Shown here piece by piece: positions 16,097 to 62,219 of a DNA stretch of 64,000 nucleotides. The stretch's first letter is position 1. Each line of letters opens with the position of its first letter. The notes under the pieces are model-generated. The model searched no databases and was not told the origin of the DNA. It saw only the letters and a list, made by a program, of their open reading frames with translations. Source of the DNA: Isoetes taiwanensis (taxonomy: Eukaryota; Streptophyta; Lycopodiopsida; Isoetales; Isoetaceae); assembly GCA_021234155.1 (NCBI GenBank), contig JAJEKV010000003.1:19638386-19702385 (forward strand), read 5' to 3'. Position numbers and translations under genes: made by a program.

Positions 16097-16108
16097 GCTC
16101 GATACCAG
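16097..16108 (-). promoter_or_regulatory. Primer-binding site of copy 1 (initiator Met tRNA type)
   Basis: On the minus strand, directly after the 5' LTR, the sequence reads TGGTATCGAGC. This is close to the plant consensus TGGTATCAGAGC, which pairs with the 3' end of initiator methionine tRNA. Confidence 0.65.
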
Positions 16109-17743: not shown

Positions 17744-18300
17744 CATTACTAGGGACCAAGTTTGCATTAGTGACCACCCCTCTCGAAAGCGCCAAAGTAG
17801 ATTCGTTTACTACGCGTAGTCGAATTGGCATGGAGGTGTTTGAATACCTCCTAGTGAGGGTAAGTGATTGATCCTACAGAGGCTTCGTAGGTGGAACTTG
17901 TCCCTAAATTGAATTTCGCCATTCGGGCGGCCTTGGCGAGTCCGGATCAGCCAATCGGGGGCCTCAAGCCCAAAATCCCGAAAACGTGGTCGCTTGTGGG
18001 GCCGTGATAAAAAATCGGTCTAAAACTCAATCGAATCTGGGGATTTTCCCACCTACTCTGGGGGGCCTTAGCGAAACCGGCTGGCTGAAAACCGAGGATT
18101 TTCACGCCCCATGCATTAATTATACTGAATTTCCGAGACGCCAAACACAAAGAAAGCCACGGATAAAAATCAGGGTCTCGAAAAGGGCGAAATCTTGGCG
18201 GGATGTCGCGGCATATTTGCGCATCGCCAGAAAATGCGCACCAACATATATACCTTCAGACTCCCTTCACAAAGAAATTTGCAGATTTAAGTGCTGCTTA
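17744..18300. repeat. 0.8 kb tandem array, continuation after the insertion
   Basis: Starts with the CATTA duplication and then 'ctagggaccaagttt', the continuation of the monomer split at 5146. A further partial unit (about 17905-18260) ends in 'gggcgaaatcttggcgggatg'. The array gives way to the right inverted arm near 18300. Confidence 0.75.
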
Positions 18301-28980: not shown

Positions 28981-29344
28981 TGCGCTTCAGGCGTATTGAT
29001 TAAGCTCCGATTTTTTGTCGCTTTCCAGTGCGGTAATAGTTCATGAGCTCGGCCTGCATCTTGGCCATATAGCGAATCACGAATGCCGCACGACTTGCTT
29101 TATCCTTCCACCATTCCTTCCGTGGTAGCCTTCTCCCATCATGGCGAAGTGGGGCAACCCCATCGTGCACAGGATGACACTCATGCCACCACTGTACGGT
29201 TGCTTTTGCATGAAGGTTAGTGTCCTCCATGGTAAGTGAAGGATCGCTAAAATGATAACATTGACTAGAGGTGCTTCTATCATGCATCACGAGAATGACC
29301 TCTTTTCTCTCAAAGTGACTACTTAGTGGCATCGAGATGGAGCT
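28981..29344 (-). other. Unassigned 110-codon minus-strand frame
   Basis: An open frame at 29000-29332 encodes residues such as 'WWHECHPVHDG' and 'KMQAELMNYYRTGKRQK' in its C-terminal half. It adjoins the broken 3' end of the copy 2 retrotransposon but has no match to copy 1, so it is probably flanking DNA. Family unknown. Confidence 0.25.
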
Positions 29345-32300
29345 CCTATTACCTCACTCACGCATCGGTTGGTCGACCACTTCGGTGTGAGCTGACCCTT
29401 ACATTATCCATGGTGTGGAGTACAGCTTCTCAGATACGATTGTAGTACCCGCGTAGCGTCCTCAGCGATAAAATTGCGTCCATTTCACAAAGATATGGAG
29501 AAATTGAGATCTTCTCAGGCGCGGATTGATCGAGAAGAACCTCGGGGAACAATCTCAAGCTGATCGTCAGATTAATTCCCAGTAAACTTCGGTCAATGTC
29601 CAATACTTCCTGCGGATTAGGAGTGTGTTTCTTTAGGAGACTTCGTGAAAGACTCTATGGATCTTGGTGTCGTAGTAAGTCCAATTTGTAGGCTTAGTTT
29701 GCCCGACAATTTGAATGGAGGCTGACCCACCTTGGAGCAAGCTTCTGCTTGCAATTCTTAGATCTGAGCTTTGCTTGTTTAACTTTTATCTTTAAATGAA
29801 ACATTGTCCCTACTTGGAACTCCCTTCTTGTTGGTCTTAGATCCAGCTATGCTTTCGCAGAAGCTTCTTGCGCTGAGGTATCCTAAGCACCTCAACAACC
29901 AATTATTTGCATCTCGGCTAGCATCTGCTGGGATACTTCTACCTTGGACCGGGGGTTGTGCCAAATTAATGCAATTAAGCAGCGATAGCGTAGTTGATCA
30001 CTGCTGGCAACATTTGGGATGACTCACCTTGGTGCTATTTATGCGCAAACTCAACCAAGTAAGATGAAGTCATCCCTTTGATTCGCGTTCCGGACATAAT
30101 TAAACATATCCTCGAGTATCAGGTGGAATTAAAAACCGATGCATACATCTGTCACGAGGGTGATAAGCGTGCTCATACGACAATTTAGTTCAATAGTCGC
30201 GGAGATCACGCGGAATGCACTCATGAACCCGAGATCGATTAAAGTTATTTCTCTTGGCATCCCATGGAGTCCTAAAATCTCCTTTGTAGACCGTAGCCAG
30301 TAGGTGTCCAGTAATGATTGCTCTACAAGGCACAAGTCGCCATTTTTACTGACGAACTGGCCGACTCTGACGACCATTAAGGCATCTTGCCCCTTATAGT
30401 TCTAGAATTTTGTAATGAAGTCCATCTTGATTATCTCCACTTGGAGTTTGAATGCTGGCAATGGCTCTAATGCCCACAGATTAAGTAGTTGCTCGGCTTT
30501 GAGTGCCTTCTTATGCCGTGACGCACCGATATATACCTTGCTATCTGCTTCTTCATGCACGGTGTGTGCTTCTCCTTATCTTGGAAGTAGGTTTTACATT
30601 AAAACTTTTCCGTGGCCCGACTATTAGATGTTGTGGGTAGGTGGAGAATCGGTATACGACTCGGATGATTCATTTTACAACTTATTTTATCGGTACAAGA
30701 GATTTCCTTCATGCAAAATGTTTGAAGGTTTCTCTCTCTTTGTCCGTTCTTGCCTCTTTAGAAGGCATACTTCACGAAGTCCTTGTCAGGTTGGCAAGCA
30801 TTTCTTCCTATTTTTCTTGCCAAAACTCGCTGGTGAGTGTTGATGTAACGTGCAATGCACTCTTGTTGTTAAGGGATGCTTGTAGCCGAGCATCTGCAAC
30901 CACATTGAGTTTCCACGGCTTTATTGCACAATCTGAAGTCGTACTCTTCCGCGAACTCCATCCATCTCCTTTGTCTCAAATTCAATATTAGTTTAGTGAA
31001 AATGTCTGTAGACTCACGATGTGGTCTCCTAGTGGAACTTCCTTCCCAATAGATGAATTATTCTCCAAATCTTTAAAGCTCTTACCCCACTTGCCCGATA
31101 AATGCAGTCGTATTATTAGCCATTGCAGAGTCTGCGTCGTTCATCTGAAGTGAATGGTAATACTCACGACTCTTTCTTCTTGCGTGGGGTATCGAAATCC
31201 TTGATCTTGCTAGCATCGGTTACAGCTAAGCATGCCTACCGGATCACGGCGTGGTAAGGCGGTTATTAAGGCTTCCTTCAACTTCTCAAATCACCTTGAG
31301 CCTTCTTTGCCAATATGCCACCCGGTCTTTTATCTTTTACGCCTTGGTGAGGTCGAGTCAATTAAACACTTCATCTTAGCCGGGATTTTGACAAACTTTC
31401 TATAATACCCTGCTAAGCCTAAAACTTCTCACCTCGTGTATGTTCTTTGGTGCGACCCATTCAATCAAGCGGATCTTTGTGGGATCGGTGGAGATGTCGT
31501 CTGTGATATGATATGCCCCAAGTATTCCCTCTTTTGGTGGCGAAATGAGCGTTTTGATAACCCATAAAAGGCTGCGAGCTTCACCGAGTACCCTTCTCAA
31601 ATCTTTGAATATGCTCCTCGAGGACTTTATGCTATACACCAAAATGTCATCAAAGAACACAATAACAAATGTGTGGGAATTCGAAGATGCTCGTTCATAA
31701 GTCTCTCATGAGATATTCTTTGGGGCATTAGATAAGTAGAGATGGCATCAGCGTAATTCATAGTGGCCATATCTCGTCGAGGAGCAGTTTTGTGGATATC
31801 TTCCTCCTTGATTATGATTTGATGATATATCAGGACCTTAAGTCTATTTTAGGAAGACCACAGCACCTTATAACTGATCCATCAAGGTCATTTGCTCTAC
31901 GGAGTAAAGTACTTGTTCTTGATGGTGTGCTTGTTTGGTGTGATGGTAATACATCCTCAAGCTTCCATCTTTCTTCTTAATGAATAAGATAGGAGACTCG
32001 ACGAACATAGGTCTTATGAACCCTAGGTCTAATAGCTCACCATGAATTGCTTCTTCAATTAGATGGATTAGGTAGTAGTCATTCTATCTGATTGCCTTAC
32101 TTGTGGGCTTGAGATTGCACAGTTCAGTGCAATTTAGCCTCCACTCCTCTATATGGCCCGAGGAAGCTCCTTGATTTTGTCGGGGAATAAGTCATGGAAC
32201 TCCCTTTATTGGCTTGGCTGCAGCAGGTAGCTTGCTTCTTGATTATCTTCTTTATCCTCTGGTGCCTCTTCTTAAGAGCCCAAGTTCGTTGAAGAAGATG

Positions 32301-33418
32301 TAGCCATGTTGCCTTTTCATGCATCAAGTAACTTCTTACTCGACATGCATTGTATTATAGGTATTACTTCCTTACCTTGATCTCCTATAATTTTTTCCGT
32401 TGAAGCAGATTAAGCTTCACCTTCGCTCCCCACAATCTATTTGTGTGCTTTTCTTGCGTTGAGGTATTCCATATTTATAATGGTCATATTTTTTCGATGT
32501 TCGTGATCCTCGCCCCCATTTCCAATGTTGATGCGGGTAAGTCTATATTGAAATTCACCCTCTTCTTGCGGCTCAGCTAGCTAACACTACTTTTGATGCG
32601 GGCTTAGACTTCCTTGTTTTCAACTTTGGCATTTGGCCATCCTTGGTGGCCTTAAAGTTGTGAAGCTAGGTGTCTATAGGGGTATAAAGATTTGGCGGTA
32701 TCTGCAATTGTGGATATTACTTGAATGCGAGCCTCGCGTTTTACGTATCTATGGCGGCAAGATATGACACTCACCATGGATAAAGTCGTGTCCTTCGTCC
32801 TCCTCTTCTTCGGCGGGGTCTCCCAACTCCCATCTCGCCAGTCTTTGCATTCATCGAGCAGGCGGTTATTGTTCTATGTCATTTGGAAGCATCGGAAGCA
32901 CAAGCGCTTTTACATGCATTCTTGCCATTTTCTTCGGAATGGAGTTGAGGAGCTGCGTATTTGTCTTTGAAAGTATTTGAGCCTCCCCTTGTCCTTTGTT
33001 ATCTTTGAAGGCGGCGTGCTTTTTCTGAAGGCATTTCCATTGATTTCATTATGGCGTCTTAGCGGGTGAAGGGCTACGGATTTATCGGGCTATGGCCTCC
33101 ATACCCTTTTTCCTTTAATCGCCTGCTTGTTTTGGTTCACTATTAAGGGTCGGATTTCCTTGTAAGCTTATGGCCTTTGCTTATTTCCGGAAATCTTGGC
33201 CCTTGGGTTCGGGGCCACGATTAATTCAAGTAGATCCTCATTGAGCCCTCCATATAGCCTTCAAGCTCTTCTCTCAAGGTTTATTTTATAAAGCCTCAAC
33301 CTCATGAACTCCTCATTGTTATATTTAAATGCCAGTTTGTTTCCTGATATTTTGCTTTGTGGAAGGCTTGCATCGATGGCACTTATTGCTCTCACGGGCA
33401 CATAATGTTGTTTGAAAG
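29345..33418 (-). pseudogene. Degenerate gypsy pol of copy 2
   Basis: The reverse transcriptase catalytic box is clear at about 31630-31660 on the minus strand ('VFFDDILVYS'). Upstream, the reading 'KKKDGSLRM' near 31960-31980 is the usual start of the RT core. The region 29625-29790 matches the copy 1 stretch 7845-7990 upstream of the chromodomain, and 29400-29600 retains 'PEVLLDQ' and a damaged 'VKW' chromodomain remnant. Frames are interrupted throughout, so the polyprotein is inactive. Confidence 0.75.
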
Positions 33419-33757
33419 TGTTGGGGGTGATCACCACTCACCACACCGTCACCACTCACCACACTTATCACCACTCACCACATTCATCATATCACAGGTA
33501 TATAGAGTGATATCTTGGCGCATGCTGACGTCTTGCGGGATATTTACTGCAGTATGCGTGTGGAGCCATTATCCACCCTTGTATTATCGGCGAGGAGGAG
33601 GAGAAGAAGAGAGGGAGGCGGTGTATTGGGAGAATTTTTGATTGATCAGCTATGGAGATTAGTGATTCTTTGTGTTGTGCATTGCCTTATTACGATGGGT
33701 GGCTTGGATTGTTGGGTTTTCATCCTTCTTGCAAGGTTAAGAGTATAGGCTCTAACA
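33419..33757 (+). repeat. 5' LTR of nested gypsy element
   Basis: Starts tgttggggg and ends tctaaca. The first 80 bp are a CACCACT/CACCACATTCAT minisatellite. It shares 'atatagagtgatatc', 'gggatatttactgc', 'gcggtgtattg' and 'gattctttgtgttgtgcattgcctt' with the copy at 39960. Confidence 0.8.
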
Positions 33758-33759
33758 AT

Positions 33760-33780
33760 TTGGCGATACGGTGCTCGGCG
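33760..33780 (+). promoter_or_regulatory. Putative primer-binding site of nested element
   Basis: Directly after the 5' LTR the sequence reads 'tggcgatacggtgctcgg'. It resembles, with errors, the TGGCGCCGTTGCCGG-type site common in Athila/Tat elements. Low confidence because of mismatches. Confidence 0.35.
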
Positions 33781-36689
33781 GACCATTAGTGACAAGAATT
33801 TCCATTGAAAGAGGTTGTTACCATTGGTATTGGTGTTAAATCCGGAGAAAAGAGCGACACCATTGAGAAAGGAGCAATTTCTTGTGTGAAGGGAATTTTA
33901 TGCGTAATTGATTGTGGAGTAAAATTTGACAAGGGGGAGCATAGTTTTATGCCGAAGTAAGAAGGACATCCCACCAAGCTCTATCGTGGCTAAGAAGATG
34001 GGTGGAAGAGTCAATCTTTGGGCTCAAAATTGCATCAAGATTGAATTTGTTTTCAGTTGGGGCCCGTCACGGGGTCTAATTCTCGGATCCGGGGAGGTTT
34101 GATTCCATTTACCGATCTAGAAGGTAATCCAATTTCGTTTTTCAAAATTGAAGGGAGATTCAATTTCGTTTTCCAATTTCAAGAAACCCAAGAAGCGAGA
34201 TAAGGTTTGGCATTACCACCTATGGTATGGGGTTTTAGGACAATGGGGATTCAAAGTTTGATGATGGTGGATCGGGATCCTTTGGAAGCACGATACGAGA
34301 AGTTTGAGGGAGGTATTGCCCGGCAATGTAGGATTCTGCGTTGTGATTACTTGCTTTGGTTTCATGGTTGCAAGATTCCCGGTGGAGGAATGGGCACAAA
34401 CTCTGACCCGGTCTTGATCAGAATTAAAAAGGAAGCTTTCATTGCTAATTATCAAAGAAGTTCATGGTAAGGATAAGACTATGGAAGGTGGACCAATTTC
34501 ACACACAAAGGAAGATGAATCAATTAGAGAGTATAATCCCGGAGGTATATTCACGGTTCTGGTAGTGGTTCATTGGAAAGATTGCAAGGAGTGATGAAAT
34601 GGATATTCAATGGTATGTGAAGAAATTTTGAAGCGAGCTATTATCATAAAGATTGAAGGCTAAACAGCCACCACAACATTGTCCGAGGCACAAAAGTATG
34701 CTCTCAAAGGTGAAGATAAGGCTGGGATACATTCATGAAGTTAATAACCGAGGCAAAGCGAGAGGATGTTAGGCCAAGATTTCTAAGCTTACAATGGTGG
34801 TGAAGCAGGGAGGTTCAGTTTCTTACTTGGCCAATTATTGTGGGTCTATTGGGCGTGCGATGCTACATGTGGGTGAAGTGCTCAAGATGCCAAATAAAGG
34901 GCCATAATGATCGAGAATGTGGGAGAAAGAGATTCTTTGAGAGGGCAGTCAGTATTTCTTTGTTATGCAACAAGCACCATCTATTCCTATTCAACCAATG
35001 CGGCCACCTATTATACCACAAGTGCCAATGATGCCACAAGCTCCAATTGCCCAACAAGTTCAATGGGTTCCACATCAATGCGTGCCGATACGCTTGAGGG
35101 ATGGTATCAGTAAGGCTCATTTATTGCAAGTTATGTGATAAATTCAAGCATGATGGGACTACTTGTTGGAAAATCCATGGAAAACCAGAATATGGGCAAC
35201 CAACAAGTATCCACCAAAGCTGACAAGAGTGTTTGAATCCGGTACCTCTTCCTAATAATGATAGGCCAGCATTCAAGATGCAAAAGTACATTGATAATCC
35301 TCGAGTTAAGGCTCTTATTGAGGGGCTTAAGAAGCGAGAGAAGGCAAAATCCCGGTAGTAAATTGTGGATTTGTTGAGGTGGAGCATGACCTATTTCAGC
35401 AAGAAGAGATTGGAAGTAAATCGTTACAAGATCACAAAAGGTAGTCACGGGGAACAAAGAGTAGTGCCATTGCGGAGAAGACTAAGACCTCTTTCGAAGG
35501 CTTTGAAGGAACAAGCTTTGAAGGTGTCGGCTAGAAGGTGCAATTCAATGTCTTGCCCATGAGCAGTTTCGATCTATAGAAAATCAGCCCATGAAGTGAT
35601 GCCTCCTATGGTGGATGAAATTCAAATGAAGATGATGTGATCAGCGAGTTTTGGCCACTAAAGTTACACTTACTCTTGAGCAATTGATGCATTTATTCTC
35701 CAAATTTATTGCAAGAGTTAGGGAAGAACAAAATCAAAATTTCAGTCCAACAAATCCTCGATAATCTGAGCAAAGAGGAGAATGGGAGGCCACCAACCCG
35801 GCAATCCAAAAGGATCTGGGCCATTTCTTTGTGATGTAGTATTAATGGATATCTAATAATCAAAGGCCAACATAAGATCTTGGTAAGGTGGAGTGAATGT
35901 ACCCGTACCACATAATGCTTCAAGTTAGATTGAAAATGATGGAGCGGAAACCCAGCTATGATGCTCAAAGCATTCAATCAAATGAAGGTGCAGCCTATGG
36001 GAGTCATAAGAATGTGTCTTATGCAAGGTCTATGAAATTGGAGAGGAAGCAATCTTGGATTTCATGGTTTTGAAATTTCAGAGAGAGTGTGCATCTTTGA
36101 AACTTATAACTGTTCTTTGGCCCAGAGTACATGGTTTAAGATCTTGCGTACAAAATTTGAGACTTCATGGAGAGGCAGAAATGAACATCTTTGAAGAACA
36201 CAAAGGGAGTTACTATAGATCATCCTGCGAGAAATCAGCAAAAGGTACCTTTCTTTGCAATACTTCTTTGAGCAGCCATGGTAGAAATCAACCGAGAATG
36301 CCATAGTGTCGAGGGCAGCAAGGTCTTAGTTGTTTTTCATATCTTGGAAGTGGGTGACAGGGAAGATAAGACTTTGTACAAGTGGTTCAAAAGGTACCCC
36401 AAATTTCAGAAATATGTCATTTCACGGCCAAGTTGCCCGTCATTATGTCAAGGGAGCTTGAGAGTATTGTTGAAGATGAGTTACAAGAGATGTAGCCAGA
36501 CATGCGAGGAAGAGTCCATTCGAACCCATTGGGAAACTTTATTCCAGCAAGGAAGTGATCAAGATCAAGTAGAGATGCTGATTTTGACATGGGCATGGAT
36601 GGAGTAATAGAGAAATCAGCCCGCTATGCAAGGACAAGCAGCTTGGTGGCATGCACGATACGGAGGATGAAATTAAATCAGATAGTCCA

Positions 36690-36875
36690 TATTCACCACG
36701 GTCATTCACAGTCACCACATACACCATTTCATCACAATCATCACATTCATCCTGATCCACCACATTCATCACTTTGTCACCACATTCACCACATTCATCA
36801 ACTGTCACCACATTCACCACATTAAGTCATTGTCATCACACCTCACCACATTCATTCTGATCACCACATTTGAGT
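36690..36875 (+). repeat. CACCACATTCAT minisatellite inside the nested element
   Basis: About fifteen imperfect 'caccacattcat'/'atcaccacat' units. They interrupt the region between gag and RT. The motif is the same as in this element's LTRs. Confidence 0.8.
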
Positions 36876-39800
36876 AAAGAACATCAATATTCTCAAAGAA
36901 ATCAAGAATTGGTTACTATTGGAGCGATCTTACTCCAAAGAGGAGGAGCGATTTGATATCTTTATTAAGAGATTCAGGATGTTTTGGCAAGAAATTACAA
37001 AAGAGGTGAAAGGCATTCCACGAGAGGTTGTAGTTTCATACCATTGATTTGAAACCAAGAGGATCAAAACCAGGAGTCCAACAAGCTCAAAGAATGGAGT
37101 CCAGCCATAGAGGAGCAAGTAAAGGTTGAAGTCATAGGGTTTTGGGCCGAGGTTATTGTACGGTGCCAAATTCCAGTTGGATCCCGAGTTCTGTGTGTAC
37201 GATTGAAAGCCAAATAACTCAATCAGAGTATGCATTGTTGATTCACGAGGGATCAACAAAGCTACCAAAGAGATCATTTTTCCTACACCATTCATAGACA
37301 CCTTGTTGGATATTGTTCGCGGGGAAATCAGGCCTATTCGTTCTTGGATGGTTACTTTCGAGGATATAATCGATTCAAATTCTCCACTACATCCAAGTAT
37401 TGTGACTTTTGAACACCTTTTGGTATCTATGCTTACAAAGGTATTACCTTTTGGCCTCTGTCTCCAGCCACATTTGAGAGAGCTATGACATATGCTTTTC
37501 ATGATATTTTAGACTTTTTGAGAGTCTTTATAGATGATTTGTAGGTATTTTGAATCAAGAAGGGATCACTTGGATCATCTCGGAAAAGTTCTTGAGCGAT
37601 GCGATTGTATGGCATAAGTTTGAATCTGCTAAGTGTAACTTCACTAGAGGAGGAAAACTATTGGGCAATTATGTTTGAAAGGGATTACAAGTGGATCATG
37701 GCAAGGTTGCAGCCTTGGAAAGGTAGAGCCCACCTACAAATGTATCACAAGTGAGAAGCTTATATGGCCAACCGGTTTTAGTAGAGTACATTTTGCTAAA
37801 ATTGACTGACCACTTGTGGTTATGTAAAACAGGGGCCGAGAATTTTTAGATGGAAGGAGAATGCTCAAGAAGCATTTGAATGGTGTCTTGGACAATTGAA
37901 GAACTTGCAGTTCTCAAGAATGGGAGTGAGCCTTTTCATTTATTCTTTCTTGTTTTGGGAGCAAGCTTTGGCTGTCACTATATGGAAAAATCAGCAAAGC
38001 ATTATGATGTGAATTACTATGCTAGTAGGTTGTTAACTCCACAAAACTTAGAAATGGACTCATGTGTTAGCATCTTGGGTTGGCATTGAAGTGGGCCTTG
38101 AATAAATTTGGGCATTATCTTCTTCCTTCACAATGGAATTGACAGAGTAATGCAATGTGTTTACATTCATATGGATGTGAACCGTTGCCATGCATTTACA
38201 ACAAAAGGTATTTGTCCAAGATCCTAAGTTTACAAGATGGGCTCTCATCATGCAAGAATTTGAGTTGAAGTATGTTAAGATGGCTCGAAGACTCATAATC
38301 CAAATTACTTTATTTGAGTAATTAGTGTGAGAATAGAAGAGCGAAGCAGACCGACTAGTAGCGGTTAGGGATAATGGAGTATTCTGAGGGTTCATTGAGG
38401 CCGTGGATCTTTGGTATGCCAATATAGCACAGGTATTTACAAGATCAGACTTATCCTTCATCATTTCAAAAGCAACAAAAAGCATGCTCTTAGAGTGGCG
38501 GCTGATTTATGTGGTGCATGGAAACAAACTGCTACTGGAGACCTAAGGAGGTCTCTTATTAAGGTGTGTTGCTGGTGTCGGCAAACTCATGATTTGTTGC
38601 AACAAGCACATGATTGTCAGGGGGCATTTGCAGCCAAGACTGGCCTAGGAAGATCCTTCATAATAATATGCCATTCCACCTATTTTGGCGTTGGTCCATA
38701 TGTAGAGTTGGATTACATTGAGACTCGCCAGTCATCCATCTGGAGTCATAAGTATATCTCCCAGCAGCCACATGCATGGTGTTTACAAAGTGGAGTGAAG
38801 CAATTCCAGCAAAGCATGCACTCTGAGAAAATACCACGGTAGCTCTTTATCACAATTTGATTTCGGTTTGGTGTTCCAACCATTCTTTTTTGTCACGATG
38901 GAAGTCAAACTTTCATGGGAAAGAAGTAGTAGCTTCAGTGCCGAGAAAGATTGGTGTTCAACGTAGTAAAGCTTACGCTTATTATCCGCGAGGGGGCAAT
39001 GGGCAGGCGGAGTCTACTAACAAAATTAAAGCTATATTGTCCAAGCGATGTGAAGGATAATCAAAGAAATTGGCATGGAAGCCTTGGCCAGATTGCCTTG
39101 AGTTTAGTGTACTTACAAGTTAGCTCTGAGTTTACACCATTTGAATTGGTTTATGGAGTGCAAGCTATGATGCCTATTCATTTGGACATTCCTTTTGTGT
39201 TCATTTATTGGAGCTACCTTATTATGAGAATTTAGGAGAAGTTCCAACTCCAAATCAAGTGCATAATAGGATGGATGATTCTTGATTGGAAGAGATGAGA
39301 CAAGAAGCGTGAGACTTCAATATGAGGGCACAAGAAAGTAAAGCTTATCAAAGATAGGATTCTGAGTTGTCAATCCATTTTGAGGAAGGCCAATTGGTGT
39401 TGTCTTGAGTTCACCCTAAAGAAGCATCTATCCAAATTTCAAAGCCCATAGGAAGGCCCATTTTGATTGATAAAGAGGTGCAGGTGGGGCTTTCTGCTTG
39501 ACCATTCGAGGTATTTGCCTAATCCAGAAATGGCAAGGATCTCGAGGCCTTATTTTGAAAGAGAAGTGCTATTCTAAAGGGATTTGGGTTGGCGCCAGCC
39601 AATTCTGGAATTGTGGAAATTTTTGGGTTACAGCAGGTCGTTTTCTGTAAACAGATGGTGCCAGATCAATAATACTTCATCTATCCTAGATCAAAAGATG
39701 TGTTTGGCGATCTGAAGATCAACGAGGCATGGTGCAGGTCAAGCGAGTCCTGGAACTCAAGATATCAACTTAAAGTTTGCCATGAATTCTGGAGGCTGCT

Positions 39801-39959
39801 GTTTCGTCACTGTCATTTTGGATAATTTGTTTTGTATCGATCCATTTGGTTTGAGAAGGGTGTAAATGGGTCATTTGGGGACATGTCCAAGGACCATATG
39901 AGTTTGTTTTGTTGTGGGTTCTGCCATGCGAGATTATCCACATTTTCCAATGGTCTCGC

Positions 39960-40270
39960 TGTTGGGGTGATCACCACTCACCACATTAAGTCACCGCTCA
40001 CCACACTTATCACACTCACCACATTCATCATATACGTATATAGAGTGATATCACACGGCGTACGCGTCGCGGGGATATTTACTGCGTAGCCCGTGTGGGC
40101 CATTATCATGTTATGCAGGCGAGGGAGCGGTGTATTGAGGGAGAGATTTTTGATTGATCACCTTCGCTAAGGATGATGATTCTTTGTGTTGTGCATTGCC
40201 TTGATACGGTGTGAGCTTGGATTGTTGGGTTTTCGTAGCTGCTTTTGAGTTAGAGTCTAGGCTCTAGCGA
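39960..40270 (+). repeat. 3' LTR of nested gypsy element
   Basis: The partner of 33419-33757, with the same start (tgttggggtgatcacc) and an eroded end ('ggctctagcga' for 'ggctctaaca'). Past it, copy 2 sequence resumes. Confidence 0.75.
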
Positions 40271-40639: not shown

Positions 40640-40930
40640 TTATTTTCCCTTGTGTTGAGAATGGGCCTCTGGGGCTTGCACGTTCTGGTCCTGCCTGTTA
40701 TTTCCCCTGCCGGCCAACATGGCTTTTATTTCTTGCAGATCTAACCTCATCTGCGAGATTTCTTCCTCTGGCGTTGGTGCGTAGTACTCTTCGAACAGAT
40801 TCCGAGGCTGGAATTGTCCCGGTGGTGTCTGCTCGCCTTGGGCTTGGAATTCAATTTCGACATTCCTCGCTGTTCTAGCTGCACATATTGCATTGGCACC
40901 ATTTATCATGAGTTCTTTTGTTGGTTGCAT
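40640..40930 (-). CDS. Small ORF of copy 2, gag-like by position
   Basis: A 96-residue frame starting at the ATG whose product begins MQPTKEL. It contains 'QPRNLFEEYYAPTPEEE' and a predicted amphipathic stretch 'MRLDLQEIKAMLAGRG', then a polar Gln/Asn-rich end. It lies just 5' of the place where pol should begin and has a recognisable counterpart in copy 1. Coiled-coil-forming gag segments of gypsy elements can look like this, but no zinc knuckle is evident. Similarity continues to about 40290 in broken frames, so the stop at 40640 may be secondary. Confidence 0.45.
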   Translation of the reverse strand: MQPTKELMINGANAICAARTARNVEIEFQAQGEQTPPGQFQPRNLFEEYYAPTPEEEISQMRLDLQEIKAMLAGRGNNRQDQNVQAPEAHSQHKGK

Positions 40931-41070
40931 TAAGAGTTTGAATGATATGATTGTTAAGGCAAAGATATCAAAAAGACATTTAAAATGCAATTCAAAAGAT
41001 CTTATATTTTTATTAATATATAGCCGATATATTAACTTAAAACAATAGTCATGATTCCCGTTACATTGAT

Positions 41071-43425
41071 TTACTGATAGGATGGGTGATCCTCAAGGAA
41101 TTTATTCACTTGGGCTGTACCCACTGTACGTCCCAAGTTCTGGAGTATATCCCTCGATGATCCCCCTCGGATAGCTAAGGCTAGCTCTTCCACCCGTCTA
41201 TTGGAGGCATGAGCTGCTGTTACTGCCAACCTACCTTGTCGAAGATGGGGTACCGTGAAGTCGAAAATGCTCAAGGCCGTTCTCCGCTTCACCAAAATTA
41301 CATGGTCGACTTTTTCTGATAGCCGTGCGTGCATGCCAAAACCCAAAAGTGCTATCAGCATCTGCACGGCTTCCTCTCCACGTGGGCTGAAAAGCTTATG
41401 AAATACTATTATTCTACCGTCTGTTAGGAGCGGGAGATAGTATTTAAGTGCTGCTCCGGGGCGAGAGTCCCCCCGTACTCCTGAGGTAGACCTGTGCCTT
41501 GATGAATACTGATCGACCGGTACTTGAACTAATTCTTCGTAATCATGGAAGAGCGTTCGTAAACTTGTTAAGTTCGTGGCTCTCCCTAGGAACGTTGGTA
41601 ATGGTTCTTGTGAAGAAGATTCTGCTTGAAGTGCTCTTGTTGTCTTCCCCCTTATTCCCATCCGCTCTTGGAGTGCCACAAACTCCTCCTCTGTAGGCAG
41701 TTGTTCTTCCGTCATCATGCCTCTGATAGTGCTATAGGCTTCGATATCTGACATTGTGTGTCCTGTGTATGTGGCTGCTTCCCTTACTTGCACCGGAAAT
41801 TCATCTGTTTCTTGGTCGATGAAATCCTCCAAGTCCGGCTGCTGCCGTAGAAGGTGGAGGAGTTCCTCGACGCGATAGCCTCTGTCCCTGCATTCGGGAA
41901 GGTTTTTAATATCGTTTAGGAACAAATATTCCTGCCCTTCGACTATGATCGGCGCTAGACTTGTTATTCCCAGCCCGATTGGTTGTGCTATCCTCAGGGA
42001 AAAAATTAAGCACAATATATATTTTTTCATAAAAAATGGTTTGGCTATTTTTCAAAATCTTACAGTATTTTATGATATACATTTGGCTAAAGTTATTATT
42101 ATCATTACGTTTATATGTATTTGGACTTGGCGAAACTTTTGAATTAAGTATTCCATTAAGCTTTCACTTGACTATTTTTTCTAATTAGAAAAGGCGAAAA
42201 ATGTAAATTCTATAGTTTTAGACATATTGGACTACAATTACAAATAATAATCAACAATCAAGGAACGTACGATGATATTAAAAAACTTTTAACGGAAGCT
42301 CACAACATAGATTATAACATCCATAGTCTAAACTACATTCAATGTAACGGTGTCCTTCTAGATATGGTGATCAAATTGCACTTATCTGTAACTCTTGAAG
42401 GAATCTATGCAACCAACTCGGGCATCTAGATGGATATTATTAGCCATCTCTTACAACTCCTTTTTTAAGATGCATATGTGGTATATGTAATAGAAATTCA
42501 TAATTTGGAAAACTACTATCACCGATGATGGTAGGTGGCGATTTGTAAAAATCTTTAATAAGAATTCATTTCGTTTGGCTATTAATGATCTAAGATATAA
42601 ATATTGTAATATAAAGAAGGGCTAATCCCTTCTTCGTTAAGGAAAAGGGGAAAAATAGTTTGGCTAATCCTAAAAAAATAATGGAGTACTTGTTTTAACT
42701 ATGGCTATTTTTTATTTTTTTAAAATAAATCTCTCTTCATAAAATTCGCCGCAAAAATTGCCTAGACCCCCTGAAAAATCGCCATTTGGCTAATAATAGC
42801 CGCTAATTTTTTCCATGGCTATCCTCGGTGTGCTCCTGTCAGCTTCGAAACGACTAACATCTTGTTCTGCTTCACGGCGTTCTTCCTCTGGGTCCACTTC
42901 CATTTCATCTTCACTTTCCTCTTCTGAGTCCTCACTTTCTTCGGATGATTCCGCTATGGACTGCTCGTACTCAAGCAGTAGTTGTTCGTCTGCTGCTGAG
43001 TCCAAGGGTGTGATCTCTAGTGGCTGGATTGATGGTTCACCTACCACGGTTTGGGCCCTATAGAATAAATATAGTGCTAAGGCTGTGTTGTAAGAGAAAA
43101 ATCTCTTTCTGTTACTGCTTAGGGTCATGTAGTTGGGTAGGCGCTCGGTTCTATTCTGCAGCAATTTCGCAATGTTGGGTATATGACTAAGGGCTGTTTG
43201 CAATACAGTCTTTGGTACAAAGTACCCTATGCATGGGGGTATTTCTTGCAAGCTAGGAGCTACTTTCTCTTGGAATTCTTGCAGAACTTGTTGGTAGAAT
43301 GGGTTTGAATTCAGGGTTGCCGACAAGTCAAATTCTTTCTGGAAAAGTTGGAGTACTAGGTTAACATCTACCTGAGCAATGTGGGGAGAGGCGCTGTACC
43401 AGCTGATGAAGGATGATGTAGCCAT
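41071..43425 (-). pseudogene. ORF2 of the H3-carrying family, split by a MITE
   Basis: Two open frames, 42790-43425 and 41071-42030, are parts of one gene. An 822-bp insertion at 41996-42817 is flanked by the 9-mer gctatcctc. Removing the insert and one 9-mer joins the halves in the same frame (residue 203 to 204), giving 507 codons. The N-terminal half has 'FDLSATLNSNPFYQQ' and a strongly acidic Ser/Glu/Asp tract at about residues 160-186. The C-terminal half has 'NLPECRDRGYRVEELLHLL', 'PTEEEFVALQERMG' and a hydrophobic domain ending 'NKFLEDHPSYQ'. The family was not recognised. The acidic tract recalls histone chaperones, which is only suggestive. The copy 1 homologue lacks the insert. Confidence 0.8.
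41996..42817. mobile_element. Non-autonomous Mutator-like MITE
   Basis: AT-rich 822-bp insert. Ends read 'agggaaaaaattaagcac' and, reverse complemented, 'catggaaaaaattagcggc', forming imperfect terminal inverted repeats. The flanking 9-bp duplications gctatcctc (41987-41995 and 42818-42826) fit the 9-11 bp habit of Mutator-type elements. No transposase gene is inside. Confidence 0.8.
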
Positions 43426-43725
43426 GAGGAGAAGCGTGATGTCGATATCAAACGGAACTGGAAGCGCTTAAGGAGGCTGGAAGATCGCCTTGGGCGCAGG
43501 AGCAACTTTATAGGTGTGGTTTAGGGGTTATGAGGGTATTTATAGGGATCTTGTACCCTAAAATTTTTAGGGTTTCTAAAACTTTTGGCATTTTGAGATG
43601 AAGTTTGATGTTCCTAGGTTAATATGGAGCTAGAAATGGATTCTATACAATTTTAGGGTTCTAATGCAACAAATTTTGGCCGATTTGGATATGTCTAGCA
43701 CAAGTTATGGACCTTGAAAGGTCGG

Positions 43726-43797
43726 ACCCCTCTAAGCATGCGCGAGAGCATAGTTAGGTTGGGACCTAAGTGGTCTCTAGCGCACCCTTAGAGGTGT
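43726..43797 (-). other. RNA hairpin before ORF2 of copy 2 (a)
   Basis: Nested perfect stems: cctctaag/cttagagg, gcgc/gcgc, agag/ctct and ttaggt/acctaa around a tggg loop. It belongs to a four-member set in this element. Confidence 0.85.
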
Positions 43798-43938
43798 TGG
43801 TCTTTTTATGTCCCATGGATGCCAAAAACAAGTTTAAAGATGTGAATTCATACTTATTTTCTTCTGAACTGCAAGTTTGTTTGCTTATTTACTTCATTTG
43901 GAGCAGGTAAGTGGCTGATCAGTGGTCCAGCTGGCTGG

Positions 43939-44010
43939 ACCCCTCTAAGCATGCGCGAGGAGGGTGTTAGATCCAGACCTAACTATGCCCTGGCGTACCC
44001 TTAGAGGTGT
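43939..44010 (-). other. RNA hairpin before ORF2 of copy 2 (b)
   Basis: 'acccctctaagcatgcgcg' pairs with 'tggcgtacccttagaggtgt', and the inner 'gttag.tc'/'ga.ctaac' pair forms a second stem. Nearly the same sequence as the hairpin at 45476. Confidence 0.85.
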
Positions 44011-44159
44011 TGGCCTCTTTTTACCCAAAATTTCCCATTTGCTCCTTAACTGCTACTATATTTACTCCAATGCACATTTTAAACAACTATATATCCTTAT
44101 TATTCAAAATTTTCACACTTTACATATAAGCCTGTTAGTTACAAAAAGTAGCTTCTGTT

Positions 44160-45257
44160 CTATTTATCTGTCCTCCATGCCAGTGAATCTTCGAAGTGTT
44201 GCACGACCTCCATCTCTGCTGCTTCTTGTAAAGCGAGTAACATATCGTTAGTTACTCGCTTGTCGGGGTCGAAGTCCGACAAAAGCTCCCGGACAAATCT
44301 CTGGAATGCAGCTCTGGGGATAAGAAATCCGTAACTCCGTTGGAAGTGTCGGATTTCTCGCAAGGCTTTCGCATACACTGAATTCTGGGATCTTTTTATG
44401 GGCTTCTGTGGGGGTTCCGGAAGCTCTGGTGGAGGTTTCAGCTGGAATATCTCGCGTGTCGGCCGCCCTCCCTCAATGTATTTTACCTTGTGTGTCTCGT
44501 AGTAGGCACTGTACTCGGTGTACATCTTCTTATATGCCGTGTAGTCTGCTAGCTCCTTCTTATATCTCCTCTCGGGCCCTAAGGTGTATGCGTCCCTGGT
44601 CGTTTTGTTCGACTTCCTTGCGGTTGCTTTGTCTGCATCTAACTTCCTCGCCTCTTGCCATTGCGGAAACGGTGGAGGCATTGGCGGGGGTAGTTCAATC
44701 TGGGGTTCTGCCGGGTCCGGTGGGGTTTGGCCCTCTTCTTGGGGTTCTTCTGGCTCGGGATGACAATTCTGGTTCTTCTGCGAGGGTTCTCCAGTTTCGA
44801 TGAATACTTCATCCAAGAAGTTCGGCGCATCACCTGAATCTCCCGACGACGATGAGGGTTGGTCGTCTTCGGGTCGTTCGCCGATGACGATGCCGACCGA
44901 TCTCCTTTTCTTCTTCTTTGGTGGCCCTTCCGTCATCACTCCCTTGCCCTTCCTGTCTTTTTCTTCCATGTTCTTCATTCTCTGTTCGCGCCATTGGTCT
45001 TCCTCGGCCTCCTCGGTTGCTTCCTGTGCTTTCTTCCTTGCCTTCTCCTCCCTCCTCTTGGCCTTTTCCTCTTTTCTCTTTGCCTTCTCTTCTTTCTTCC
45101 GCCTCTTCTCTAGATTTCGGTAGTATCTAGGTCGCCTCTCCATGTCGGCCTTCAGTTTCTCTTCGTCATCTTTGAGTTTCTGCTCGGCGGCGAGGACTTG
45201 GGCGCTGGGCTTATCATCGTTTTTTACCTTACGAGCGGTTTGCTTCGTCCTAGCCAT
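44160..45257 (-). CDS. Histone H3-like protein encoded by the retrotransposon (ORF1)
   Basis: A 365-residue intact frame, first ORF after the 5' LTR. I chose the ATG at 45257 because the product then begins MARTKQTARK, identical to the H3 tail through K9; the frame is open upstream. A Lys/Glu-rich helical region follows (about 24-105), then a basic cluster PPKKKKRR (112-119), acidic and proline-rich stretches (129-198), a second tail-like motif TARKS (212-216) and a Tyr/Lys-rich region. The C-terminus (about 297-361) is an H3 histone fold: 'ALREIRHFQRS', 'AFQRFVRELLSDF' and 'LALQEAAEMEVVQHFEDS' align with H3 alpha-N, helix 1 and helix 2. It stops before loop 2 and helix 3, so the fold is incomplete. 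Known H3 variants lack such a roughly 285-residue spacer. A nucleosome-mimicking or chromatin-targeting role is inference. Confidence 0.85.
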   Translation of the reverse strand: MARTKQTARKVKNDDKPSAQVLAAEQKLKDDEEKLKADMERRPRYYRNLEKRRKKEEKAKRKEEKAKRREEKARKKAQEATEEAEEDQWREQRMKNMEEKDRKGKGVMTEGPPKKKKRRSVGIVIGERPEDDQPSSSSGDSGDAPNFLDEVFIETGEPSQKNQNCHPEPEEPQEEGQTPPDPAEPQIELPPPMPPPFPQWQEARKLDADKATARKSNKTTRDAYTLGPERRYKKELADYTAYKKMYTEYSAYYETHKVKYIEGGRPTREIFQLKPPPELPEPPQKPIKRSQNSVYAKALREIRHFQRSYGFLIPRAAFQRFVRELLSDFDPDKRVTNDMLLALQEAAEMEVVQHFEDSLAWRTDK

Positions 45258-45475
45258 TATTTGACAGAGCTTGATTCGGATTAGGGCGCCCGAAGATCGC
45301 CTATTGGGAAGAGCTCGAAGAACAACTTGGCAAACCCTAAAAATGAGATCTAAGTCCACTAATTTATAGGGTCAAATTTTTAGGGTTTGGTCTAATTGGT
45401 TATTTCCTTGGTTTGTTGGTGAAGTCCTCCATATCCCGAATCGAAGCTGGGTCTTCTTCAACTATTTTCCCTCGA

Positions 45476-45547
45476 ACCCCTCTAAGCATGCGCGAGGAGG
45501 GTGTTAGGTCCAGACCTAACTATGCCCTGGCGCACCATTAGAGGTGT
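45476..45547 (-). other. RNA hairpin before ORF1 of copy 2 (a)
   Basis: 'acccctctaagcatgcgcg' against 'tggcgcaccattagaggtgt' forms the outer stem. The near-palindrome 'gttaggtccagacctaac' forms the tip. Confidence 0.85.
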
Positions 45548-45684
45548 TGCTCCAAATTGACTTTTACTTAATGTTTTTCTGTGTTTTAACATACAAATCT
45601 AGCTAATTCGAGCTTTTTAAATGGGATATTATCTTTTATTTTACAAGGCCTCCTAAGGCCGAGTTCTAGGGTTCATATGGGGTG

Positions 45685-45756
45685 ACCCCTCTAAGCATGC
45701 GCGAGAGACCAATTAGGTATGGACCTAACATGCTCCTGGCGCATCCTTGGAGGTGT
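45685..45756 (-). other. RNA hairpin before ORF1 of copy 2 (b)
   Basis: 'acccctctaagcatgcgcg' against 'tggcgcatccttggaggtgt', with an inner 'ttaggt'/'acctaa' stem around 'atgg'. Confidence 0.8.
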
Positions 45757-46006
45757 CGGCCGAAAAAGTGTCTAAAATTCAGTAGACTTTCTTAGGTTAC
45801 TTTTCTTCTATGTATTTCTTCTTAAATATGTTCTCTAATTATCTTAATTCTAGATAATTACTAACTCTATCCCGGGGAAAGAAAAAAAAATTTCCCACTA
45901 CTCGAGGTTCGTGCTTGGGCTTTTATCTCCAAGACTGAATGTCTAGATTAGTTAGTTCCTATAGGATTACAGTCAGTGCTCGATCTTGGTATGCCAAGAT
46001 CACCAT

Positions 46007-47570
46007 TGTGACGGCCCCAGCTCCTATACGATGCCCCGATCGTATACAAACTGGAGATCATCCCTCAAACCAGCATCTGCTTGCTGACATGAGGCCGTCC
46101 ACCTAACATCGGGCCCTTGTTGGTGGCCAAGAACCCAACGGGGAAGAATGGGCGTGTCATTCATCCCGTCTCCCTCGGGATCGATCTAGCTGCGGAAGCG
46201 TAAACACACATGAGCACATGACATCAATCAACAATAACATACCCACCTCGAAAGGTGGTCCACCATATCACAGTAGCTGCAACAACACATCAGTACATCA
46301 ACTTAACATGGGGAAATCCTACCCAGGCTCAGACTCTTGGGGAAAGACTGACGACTTGGGTCTCCGGATAACAATGCAGACAGAATTCATGGCAAATGGA
46401 TTTGGCTGGCATAGAAACATGGTCGTTGGATAGTCCACTCCATCCGCCCCTCCTGTGCATACTTTGCAGATAGGCTGAAAAGTATTAGAGCCTGACCGTA
46501 GCCTGCCGGGTTCATAGCCAAAGGGGCTACAACTGGGTTGCATCTCCCCAGTTTTCGATGAGGCAGGAGGAGATCACTCTCCTCCAGAAGGTTCATGCCA
46601 ATCACAGGCGAGCTAGAGAGCCACTGCTTGTATACGACTTGAACCCCTAGAAGGCGACGCATCATTCAAGAGGTGTCGAGCCCATACCCTGCCCGCACGC
46701 AGTGACAGGGTATTAGGCCTAGCCCACAATGTTCCTCGGCTGTCGCTACGCACCAGAGGAATCAACTGTGATCAGACAAGTCCTTCCTTGTTAGCCGGTC
46801 TAGCTCCGCCACCCACAGCCAGGCGGGCTCTTATGCACAGGCCGCATTAATTGGGAATTAATGGGCTAAACTATGATCATTCAATCTACTGGGCTCTGGG
46901 TCTCTACCCCCCTTCCCAATACACAAGAGTGGCGCATAGAATGTCAAAACATCATCACAACAGAACTGGAAATAATAGAATACATCTATTCTAATCTACC
47001 TAATCATACATGGTTAGGTTCCTTTGTTAGTGTCTATTATTCTTAGGCTGTAGGGGTCACCTATAGCTAAGAATGAATACGAATCCTATAGATTGAGAGC
47101 TGAAAACTCAGATCTAGCTATCGGATCAACCACTAACCTGCTTCTTGGCTGGCTCCCACTCCTCTGAAAGCGTCCATGCTGCTGGATCTTGAGACTGCTG
47201 GTCTTGGATCGAGCTACAACCTAGGAATTCCGGTTCCTCTGCTACCGTTCAGGCGAAAGGGCATCCAAAGCTGCTCCAATCCGACCTCTAGGGACTGGAA
47301 ACCGAAAAGGTTTCCCTTTTAGGGTTTATGCCCCTTTATCTCCACGAATTTAGGGCTGGTCCCTTTTGGTCAATGGGGCATTGCCACGTGGCAAAAAGAT
47401 ATTATATTCACATGTGGCCTTAACATGTGCAATATAATGGTTCACAGGGTCGTACCCTAGGGTACTACCCCTTTATGGTCGCTGTGTACATGTCGTCTGA
47501 GTCGACATGTACTAGTGACGTGTCAGTATAATATATATATTCATACCGTATATTATTCTGGAACGTCACA
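46007..47570 (-). repeat. 5' LTR of copy 2
   Basis: 1564 bp bounded by tgtgacg at 46007 and cgtcaca at 47570, a perfect 7-bp terminal inverted repeat. It is related along its length to the copy 1 LTRs (for example 'cgtaaacacacatgagcacatgacatcaa' corresponds to 'cgtaaacatacatgtcggtagcacatacatcaa'). The adjoining primer-site region (45980-46006) carries the inverted repeat gatcttgg/ccaagatc, so the Met-type site seen in copy 1 is not clear here. Confidence 0.8.
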
Positions 47571-51162: not shown

Positions 51163-52400
51163 ATGCCAAAAGCCCCACATAAACAAGGGTTTGCCCCCCT
51201 AGGGGCAACCCAAAAAGGAAGAGATTATGATGAAACCTACTCTCCTATAGTGAAACTTACAAGCATTAGAGTTTTGCTAGCTATGGCCAATGCTATGAAT
51301 TTAGAGCTACATCACATGGACGTAAAAACTGCATTTTTAAATGCTACTCTTGAGGAGGAGGCTTATATGAAACAGGCTCCAGGATATTCACATGGAAAGG
51401 ATATGGTCTGGAAGCTTAACAGGGTTGTCTATGGGTTGAAACAGTCACCAAGAGAATGGTACTTATGTATAAATTATTTCTTACGAGAACAGGGCTTTGA
51501 AAAATTGCAAAATGATGGGAATCTTTATAGGTTTGAGCAAAATGGAGAATATTGCATTATTGCACTCTATGTAGATGATTGTATTATGGTTGCAAGCTCT
51601 TTGAAAATTCTGAACATATGCAAAGGTATTTTAAAATCCAGGTTTCAAATGTCAGACCTAGGTGAGCTCAAAAAGTTTCTTGGGATTGAGGTTGTCAGAA
51701 ACAGAGAGTTGAAATGGATAAAGTTGCATCAAAGTGCACATATAGAAAATATGCTGAAAAGGTTCAAGCTAACTGAAGCCAAACCATCAAAGATTCCTAT
51801 AATAGCTAGACATAGACTGACAGAAGGACATGATGTTACTAATGATGAGGTTATTGAAATGCAAAATGTACCTTATAGAGACTTGGTTGGGTGCCTATTG
51901 TTTCTGGCAAACAGTACTCGGCCTGACATAGCCTACGCAGTCAACATTTTGAGCAGGAGAAACCATGATGCTACCAAAGAACATTGGGAGGCAGCTAAAC
52001 GAGTTCTTAAATATCTAAAGGGAACTCAAACTCATGGTATATGCTTTGACTCAGAAAATCTAACGATGATGTGTTATAGTGATGCAGATTGGGGAGGAGA
52101 TCTGCACACTAGAAAATCAACTTCTGGCTATGCAGTATACTTAGGAGGAGGTGTGATAACCTGGAGATGCAAAAAACAAGCAGCAGTGGCAATGAGCTTA
52201 GCTGAAGCAGAATATGCTGCATCCTCTCTGGTTGCCAAAGAATTAGTGTGGTTGAGAAGGTTACTGAATGAATTAGGATGTATCCAACAAGCACCTACAG
52301 AAATCTGGACTAACAGTCAGAGTTGTATAGCAATAGTTAAGAATCCAGTATATCATGATAGAACCAAGCACATTGAGCTAAACATGCATAATTGTAGAAA
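51163..52400 (+). pseudogene. Truncated Ty1/copia pol (reverse transcriptase and RNase H)
   Basis: A single long open frame covers the end of the copia polyprotein. Reverse transcriptase: 'DYDETYSPIVKLTSIR', 'DVKTAFLNATLEEEAYM', 'VYGLKQSPREW' and the catalytic 'LYVDDCI' at about 51565-51590. RNase H: 'CYSDADWGGD' near 52075, 'SLAEAEYAA' near 52198, 'DRTKHIELN' near 52380. The start ATG at 51163 is only the first in the remnant; capsid, protease and integrase are absent. After 'TKHIE' the frame runs into unrelated sequence. The frame is otherwise intact, so the truncated insertion is probably younger than the gypsy copies. Confidence 0.9.
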
Positions 52401-53368
52401 AAGGAAAGGGGCTAAGTGTCGGAACAGTGAGGAACCTCCGACCGACCACCAGGATAGAGCGGATACAACCCGCTGGCTGGTGTTCTATTTCCACATTCGA
52501 GTTTTGGTGCACCAAAAACTGAGGGTTCATAATTTGACCCACTATTAAAGGTGGGACAGTGGAATCCACAATGTGTACAGCTCAAAGTTGTTAATAGCAA
52601 AGCATTCTCGCATGGCCACGAAGCCAAGTATAAGCGGGGTGCCGGTACAAAAAAAAAACAAGAAAAGTCCTTAGAAAGGGCTACATTGTATCAGCGTGTT
52701 GCGCTAGTAGCACCCTATGGGAGCTCGCCCATGCTACATCAGTCCAGGGGCCTTAGGGCACAAGGGACAATAATTCTATTCTATTCTATTCTATTTGAAT
52801 AGCATACATCTTGAGTTATAGATTCGATTGTTTCAAAACCCTTTTCCGTTTCTTCTATATTTCAAAGGAAATAAAAATTCAGAAGAGGATTGATAATCTG
52901 GCCAAGTGGTAATTGCGTTCCACCATCAATCATTCAAGGCCAGGAAGCTTCAAAAATGTATACTTAAATTAAGCTATTCAACAAGAAATTGAATGCAATT
53001 ATTTGTATTCTAATTGCTAGCAAAACATAGCCAAACTTGTATCTTGCTCTAAACTGCAGCTAACTCCTGACACGTCTGAGTAGAAAATAAGAAACTAGCT
53101 GAAAGAAAGAAATGCATAATTTGTATAGTTCTATTAAAAAAAGCAAGATTTTATGCATAAGGAACGAAACACAATCAGACAATAAACATAAGGTAATTAA
53201 CCTACACAACACACGTGATCTGTATAACAATCTGCAAGGTCTGGACATAGATGGTCAGCCAAGACAGGAATTAGATCAATCCCATAAAAAATTATAAAGA
53301 AATATAAATTCCTAGCAAAATGTAGGTCTTGACGTTTTGTGCAGTCTTCAGGAGGTAACACGTATGTT
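52401..53368. other. Unassigned DNA with a possible LINE/SINE tail
   Basis: No gene. At 52690-52800 'cagtccaggggccttagggcac' is followed by a pentanucleotide tail (attct)n, which resembles the 3' end of a non-LTR retroposon on the plus strand. The rest is AT-rich. The last three bases, gtt (53366-53368), are the left target duplication of the CACTA element. Confidence 0.4.
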
Positions 53369-59529: not shown

Positions 59530-59557
59530 TTCACCCTGCTTCCTCCTCAGGTTGAAA
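59530..59557 (+). promoter_or_regulatory. Possible 5'-UTR intron acceptor
   Basis: A pyrimidine-rich run ending 'cttcctcctcag|gttgaaaatg' immediately precedes the start codon and has the form of a strong 3' splice site. A leader intron just before the ATG is therefore possible. Confidence 0.35.

Positions 59558-62219
<2,662 letters not shown>

Follow-up and report, generated by a model that had tools for sequence, protein, structure and literature searches.

A chromovirus family of Isoetes taiwanensis carries a split, histone H3-like accessory protein under purifying selection

Mobile elements carrying histone H3 coding sequence have been described in fungi, where hAT DNA transposons captured and amplified H3 in Pseudocercospora, Cercospora, Sphaerulina and Pyrenophora tritici-repentis. 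According to the portions of the report drawn on here (PMC6710886), the Pseudocercospora copies number in the hundreds, are RIP-inactivated and mostly truncated, 23 of the 26 copies in Pyrenophora tritici-repentis appear functional, and the captured H3 has no known use to the transposon; H3 in a mobile element is therefore not new as such. Among chromoviruses, sunflower Tekay group 2 (PMC11728184) and the eORF-5′F class (PMC6317226) possess, like the family described here, a chromodomain integrase (of type II in Tekay), and precede gag by an ORF of ~400 aa that has a nuclear signal, is predicted to form three helices and contains long disorder; the cited sections of both papers report no histone similarity for it. 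The cited sections of PMC6317226 give methylated H3K9 as the ligand of type I chromodomains and characterize type II chromodomains by missing aromatic cage sites, with partners that are called unidentified. A domain screen of 121 angiosperm genomes names no histone domain in the text section used (PMC9289625). The original prediction for the present locus knew of no described LTR retrotransposon family encoding a protein with an H3 tail and fold, and our search agrees: hAT DNA transposons with H3 exist, and in the open-access literature no histone-encoding LTR retrotransposon was found (an earlier description may exist elsewhere).

The 64,000-nucleotide stretch of Isoetes taiwanensis DNA analysed here (the window) contains, as the first long ORF past a 1.56-kb LTR, a frame of 365 aa (ORF1; 44160..45257), opened by the ATG at 45257 and closed by the stop codon 44160-44162. 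Its predicted coordinates proved correct, and its strand is minus. The stop-free run containing it spans 403 codons compared to a longest run of 217 in 500 dinucleotide shuffles, and the frame is thus beyond chance. Both the H3-like start and the H3 fold that had been predicted were recovered. The first codons (45228..45257, minus; residues 1-10) read MARTKQTARK, so that after Met removal the predicted N-terminus is ARTKQTARK, and the Pfam Histone profile matches residues 284-357 (E=4.7e-10, 40.2 bits, cut-off 26.4), while PDB H3 chains match residues 297-358 (E=4e-11). Helices alpha-N, alpha-1 and alpha-2, as anticipated, occupy residues 298-358 (44184..44366, minus), with 32/61 residues identical to an H3 when counted from residue 298. 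In this copy the fold ends after helix 2 and the profile alignment ends at position 97 of 122, loop 2 and alpha-3 being absent through a 63-nt in-frame deletion (21 codons). An AlphaFold2 model, built with an alignment that included H3s, places C-terminal helices at 294-309, 315-327 and 337-362 (block pLDDT ~47-62 there), along with a long helix at 19-104 and two middle helices; Foldseek ranked nucleosomal H3 first for this model (probability 1.00), at a best E of 0.008 and with none <=0.001.

The H3 tail and core are not contiguous in ORF1: the tail runs up to residue 10 and the fold begins at ~298, the rest of the H3 tail is absent, and the ~290 residues between H3 residues 1-9 and the fold are helical and disordered; a basic KKRR stretch is also present. 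A protein database search with ORF1 gave 371 matches, the best 120 of which are of histone H3 type by their names and Pfam columns, and none of these 120 is a whole-length relative (query coverage <=29%). A protein database search with residues 205-365 gave no match. The second TARKS motif noted by the original prediction is indeed found at residues 212-216 of the window copy; as a family feature it was rejected, an internal ARKS occurring in 1/28 intact copies. An ordinary histone gene or a processed H3 copy was likewise rejected on the basis of the linked LTR, ORF2 and gag-pol and the many copies, in keeping with the prediction that ORF1 is the first ORF of a Ty3/gypsy element. Viral origin was set aside after scans of viral contigs with ORF1, ORF2 and the hairpin arm described below gave no match.

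To place ORF1 among its relatives, the genome (1.658 Gb, 1110 contigs) was searched for ORF1 and ORF2. The ORF1 search returned at least 125 matches (112 candidates scored of 35,651), which makes the copy number a lower bound, and 29 of these 125, among them the window copy, are stop-free from residue 1 through residue 360 or beyond, supplying the full-length relatives that had been sought. Briefly, 40 stretches were fetched (28 listed as stop-free, 12 with stops), and addition of copies L001-L008 and removal of duplicates gave 42 distinct ORF1 loci, 28 of which count as intact, the rule being an ORF no shorter than 360 aa. Intact copies are 382-394 aa long in 25/28 cases, keep the loop 2 sequence HAKR in 26/28 and, judging from the sequence endings, mostly continue into alpha-3 after HAKR. 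The profile check accordingly extends beyond the window copy: Pfam Histone, run on two further copies, matched near the whole domain in L012 (profile 20-121) and L021 (23-121 of 122), each at E=3.3e-21. H3.3 matches L012 residues 300-390 (E=1.3e-18); the L012 core is identical to H3 at 43/89 positions, retains R49, R52, R69, R72, R83, E97, D106, C110, H113 and L126, and carries the substitutions R63>P, K79>D and F84>V. The MARTKQTARK start is exact in 22/28 intact copies; the six deviant tails comprise R8P (two copies), K9M (two, one of them also Q5H), Q5H alone (one) and a changed start (one). K4 is kept in 27/28 and K9 in 26/28 copies, and residue 10, the position of H3 S10, is V or P, never S, in 28/28.

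ORF1 is under purifying selection among element copies, as a comparison of 27 sequences shows (NG86, 351 pairs; L036 dropped for a disturbed fold frame, L015 kept with a shifted C-terminus). The dN/dS check proposed with the original prediction gave 0.159 for the whole ORF1, with 0.041 in the tail, 0.075 in columns 31-110, 0.151 in columns 216-300, 0.094 in the fold and the highest value, 0.330, in the disordered part (columns 111-215), so that H3 residues 1-9 form the most constrained part of the protein. Mismatches by codon position among the 28 copies were 0.116, 0.117 and 0.320. Since copies were chosen for open frames, the dN/dS values are somewhat low; the regional contrast comes from the same sequences and is not accounted for by this choice. 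With histone H3/CENH3, ORF1 shares tail residues 1-9 and, in other copies, a complete fold, and it differs from them in ~290 extra residues, in the absence of the remaining H3 tail and in K79>D and R63>P. CENH3 has a divergent N-terminal tail unlike ARTKQTARK, whereas H3 residues 1-9 are exact in 22/28 ORF1 copies.

By its coding content the family is a Ty3/gypsy chromovirus. Pieces of copy L024 match Retrotrans_gag (5.4e-16), RVT_1 (2.4e-41), RT_RNaseH (5.3e-34) and Integrase_H2C2 (8e-6) in gypsy order, along with the Ty3 capsid domain. Matches to SH3_Tf2-1 and Chromo lie at the integrase end of L022, the latter with E=2.7e-9 (37.3 bits against a cut-off of 25.1). L009 contains a 90% identical stretch, and in an older element of the window positions 7578-7850 match Chromo below cut-off (E=0.0029). 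Compared by eye with HP1 residues that we take to form the aromatic cage, the L022 chromodomain (EIVPEVLLDR...YLVKWTYLP) is missing cage sites 1 and 3, so that binding of methyl-K9 is not expected and the domain appears to be of type II. This assignment by eye, together with the 5′ ORF, is compatible with membership in Tekay.

The window copy is arranged, in element sense, as LTR, palindromic hairpins D and C, TATA box, 5′-UTR motif, ORF1, hairpins B and A, TATA box, 5′-UTR motif and ORF2, followed by a gag start, an older plus-strand LTR element and a decayed gag-pol. The 5′ LTR (TGTGACG...CGTCACA; 46009..47570, minus) matches the L009 LTR from end to end at 95.1% identity; no second LTR of this copy was found in the window, and the 3′ part there derives from an older copy. 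The gag start (40640..40990, minus) ends at a recombination breakpoint at about 40,640, above which 40-column identities to three copies are 0.85-1.00 and below which they are 0.60-0.93, mostly 0.70-0.80. Best identities to other copies follow the same step: 95% for the LTR and most of the leader, 89% for ORF1, 91-92% between the ORFs, 95-97% for the ORF2 parts and 98% for the gag start, then ~76-81% past ~40,640. The older LTR element within gag (33419..40266, plus) has LTRs at 33419-33754 and 39960-40266 that are 74.6% identical; copy L011 overlaps with a relative that matches at 82% across 2.8 kb. The decayed gag-pol of the same family (29299..33418, minus; ~77-81% identical to other copies) has a longest stop-free run of 101 codons in 29600-33418. 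No Gag, RT, RNase H or integrase Pfam match was obtained with the window gag-pol frames and pieces, those of both window elements giving just the weak Chromo match and weak matches taken as chance; a PDB search with the RT piece returned nothing informative, and CpG depletion, tried as an age measure, was uninformative. Judged from these sequence identities, the window element is a chimera in which a younger, open 5′ half continues, without a shift in register, into an old copy. Recombination or conversion may have made the join, with an assembly join as the alternative; post-insertion selection as the cause of the open 5′ half was rejected on account of the identity step at ~40,640. Elsewhere in the window, a long ORF at 51163-52548 (+) resembles, by eye, a copia RT-RNase H, and at 59552-60505 (+) a gene resembling those for plant calcium-dependent protein kinases begins, again judged by eye.

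ORF1 and ORF2 seem to have their own predicted promoters. On the minus strand, ORF1 is preceded by a TATA box read from sequence, CTATAAATT (45361..45369), and an exact 5′-UTR motif, AGGCGATCTTC (45292..45302), and ORF2 by the TATA box CTATAAATA (43537..43545, a sequence match) and a second exact copy of AGGCGATCTTC (43480..43490). Exact AGGCGATCTTC occurs at four sites in 64 kb (13665, 15533, 43480 and 45292), and in the two elements concerned every one of these precedes ORF1 or ORF2; at <=1 mismatch there are 4 matches compared to 0.94 expected, a number reached by 1/100 shuffles. Three of these sites are preceded by CTATAAATA (3 in the window, 0.60 expected) and the fourth by CTATAAATT. Across 20 copies, AGGCGATCTTC (<=1 mismatch) was found at the ORF1 site in 12/20 and at the ORF2 site in 12/20, and was missing from 8/20 at each.

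The palindromic hairpins lie, all on the minus strand, upstream of ORF1 (D, 45685..45758, z -4.5; C, 45476..45549, z -3.2 and 96% identical to hairpin B) and between ORF1 and ORF2 (B, 43939..44012, z -2.6; A, 43726..43799, z -6.8). The 20 copies contain 78 arms (<=4 mismatches), 50 upstream of ORF1 and 28 in the interval separating the two ORFs; eight copies have five arms, three before ORF1 and two after. Neighbouring arms are spaced at a median of 213 bp (n=36, range 157-220), and the 84-nt surroundings of the arms have a mean MFE of -36.5 kcal/mol compared to -16.7 for random stretches. The ~213-bp spacing (L009-L028), upstream of two genes, is near a nucleosome repeat. Covariation of hairpin pairs in the window copy did not exceed that of shuffles (374/500 as high), which makes a protein-bound DNA palindrome as likely as an RNA hairpin.

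ORF2, an accessory protein without assigned function, was found by ORF scan in a first part (42827..43425, minus) and a second (41071..41995, minus), the second also showing codon-position bias against the older element. Between the two parts lies an AT-rich insertion of 822 bp that has short inverted ends (41996..42817, strand unassigned). The insertion is flanked by a 9-bp target duplication, GCTATCCTC (41987-41995 and 42818-42826), by whose length it was judged Mutator-like, and none of the 20 ten-kb copies that were compared contains a match to it. In other copies ORF2 forms stop-free frames of up to 540-550 codons. Mismatches between window and old element by codon position (0.42, 0.43, 0.58) are skewed such that ORF2 was under coding constraint. 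Neither protein databases (second part, E up to 1) nor PHROGs (ORF2 of L026) gave a match, and an AlphaFold2 model of part of ORF2 had a mean pLDDT of 34. The genome search with the second part gave at least 125 matches (125 scored of 11,625) in two groups, one at ~71-96% identity with many members adjoining ORF1 copies, the other at ~58-64%.

From the second group, here treated as a subfamily, two stretches of ~1 kb were fetched. The first, L057, encodes an H3 fold 66% identical over 97 aa and ends short of loop 2; this copy is broken, with the fold in another frame than the preceding part. The second, L058, has MARTKQTA (8/8) at the expected place, with the frame broken directly after, and stops before the fold. 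H3 parts thus occur in two subfamilies that are ~60% identical in ORF2, the fold in one stretch and the tail in the other.

An old, decayed family member in the window (about 5148-17745, minus) has the same order of parts as the younger element and an LTR 62% identical to the window LTR over ~1 kb (E=8e-47). A frameshift-tolerant scan finds its ORF2 (0/100 shuffles as good, each half), and its ORF1 (14.3-15.5 kb) is weakly recognisable: 7/200 shuffles were as good over the whole length, and 4/200, 25/200 and 70/200 for residues 101-230, 1-120 and 201-300, respectively. The histone fold was not detected in this decayed 14.3-15.5 kb region (rank 279/428 bins; 100/200 shuffles as good). The element sits between matching repeats of ~780-bp period (2225-5146 and 17744-18207). 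Hairpin-like repeats at 13905-15912 (-) occupy four places around ORF1 matching those of the younger element, with different letters; two are more stable than shuffles (z -3.1, -3.2) and two are not (z -0.7, -1.5). The hairpin repeats are more alike within an element than between elements, as in concerted evolution.

The preserved H3 tip and core suggest that the element works on host chromatin with a captured chromatin part. We propose that a Ty3/gypsy chromovirus lineage captured an H3 sequence and kept it as its first accessory gene; that the ORF1 protein, given the H3 residues it retains, would pair with H4; that it may enter or contact chromatin and there display an H3 tail cut down to residues 1-9 (K4, K9); and that, perhaps with ORF2 on the palindromes, it might protect element chromatin from silencing. 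Taken whole, this explanation is one that we consider evenly balanced between right and wrong. The residues kept in L012, whose roles we take to be H4 pairing and H3-H3′ contact, make both possible, while R63>P, K79>D, F84>V and the 43/89 identity mean that nucleosome incorporation may fail; these core changes speak for a divergent role. The comparison of copies fits selection on H4 pairing, on the tail or on nucleic-acid binding alike. For the function itself we rank first anti-silencing at the element's own regulatory array, a serious candidate that we hold somewhat short of an even chance, because ORF1 and ORF2 apparently have their own promoters behind diverging repeats, as in VANC systems.

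Among the alternatives, the best surviving is that the ORF1 protein is bound by the integrase chromodomain of the same element and steers the pre-integration complex to ORF1-marked chromatin. The Chromo match of the L022 integrase end (E=2.7e-9), the strongest constraint falling on H3 residues 1-9, and the binding of methylated H3K9 by type I domains beside the open place left for type II partners in the cited part of PMC6317226 all point this way; against these, the loss by eye of cage sites 1 and 3 argues against methyl-K9 binding, and a separate ORF1 promoter provides no obvious link to the particle, so that we regard this tethering as possible but rather doubtful. Somewhat less probable, and in our view unlikely, is that the soluble protein, presenting H3 1-9 at the tip of a long stalk, sequesters readers of the H3 tail or methyltransferases acting on H3K9: the exact tail in 22/28 copies, a K9 without neighbouring phosphorylatable S10 in 28/28 and the long predicted helix at 19-104 would suit such a decoy, for which the conserved histone fold (dN/dS 0.094) would nonetheless be superfluous. 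Coating of element cDNA or RNA by ORF1 as a chromatin-like particle would draw on the histone fold, the KKRR stretch and the long helix, but a Gag with capsid domain is separately encoded and ORF1's own promoter elements decouple its dosage from Gag, rendering such packaging improbable. That ORF1 is a passively captured host gene, useless to the element, has precedent in the commonness of TE gene capture in plants (cited parts of PMC3726574 and PMC7264820) and in the amplification of H3 by fungal hAT transposons (PMC6710886, as cited); this reading is largely contradicted, and very improbable, in the face of a dN/dS of 0.159 over 351 pairs, the codon-position mismatches of 0.116, 0.117 and 0.320 and the H3 parts in two subfamilies ~60% identical in ORF2. 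Host domestication of the window copy, suggested by ORF1 and ORF2 parts that are open next to a broken gag-pol, is largely contradicted and hardly credible, since the younger 5′ half (best matches 94-98%, 91-92% between ORFs, 89% in ORF1) on an old copy (~76-81%) explains the open frames without it and since ORF1 is shortened by a deletion and ORF2 interrupted by an insertion.

A further reading would have an element-made H3 variant with a stripped-down tail deposited on the element's own palindromes or targets and read by its own type II chromodomain. Although we think this unlikely, if true, ligand and reader would travel in one element and the missing partner of type II chromodomains would be named. 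ORF1 offers a naturally occurring H3 tail of which just residues 1-9 are kept, a candidate for the type II partner left unnamed in the cited part of PMC6317226, and a possible function for the unexplained 5′ additional ORFs of chromoviruses.

Compared with known systems, what appears new is a retrotransposon family with a selected, split H3 accessory protein, for which the open-access literature yielded no precedent. The fungal hAT elements (PMC6710886, as cited) are alike in being mobile elements carrying H3 coding sequence in many copies and unlike in being DNA transposons that captured a plain H3 transcript, whereas here tail and core are split by ~290 residues and selected among element copies. 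Unlike Tekay group 2 and the eORF-5′F class, the present family has two 5′ ORFs, one of which encodes an H3 tail and fold, along with TATA boxes, a UTR motif common to both and an array of palindromes. The Phalaenopsis Gypsy elements with an AlkB m6A demethylase ORF (PMC9289625) are, in the sections cited, another plant Ty3/gypsy lineage in which a domain of host origin became fixed in an extra ORF, which there encodes an RNA demethylase and not a histone. Grande gene23 (PMC7264820, sections cited) is likewise a retrotransposon accessory gene, driven by a promoter of its own and yielding a nuclear product, but lies antisense between pol and the 3′ LTR and has no clear protein similarity. Finally, VANDAL elements and their VANC proteins (PMC5735166, PMC10398659) combine, as here, a TE accessory protein with fast-diverging repeated non-coding motifs; VANDAL is a DNA transposon, and the passages cited mention no histone similarity. 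A VANC-like anti-silencing protein would bind such a motif and strip silent marks; in the present family the motif array is known from sequence, and ORF1 and ORF2 are the candidate binders of its palindromes.
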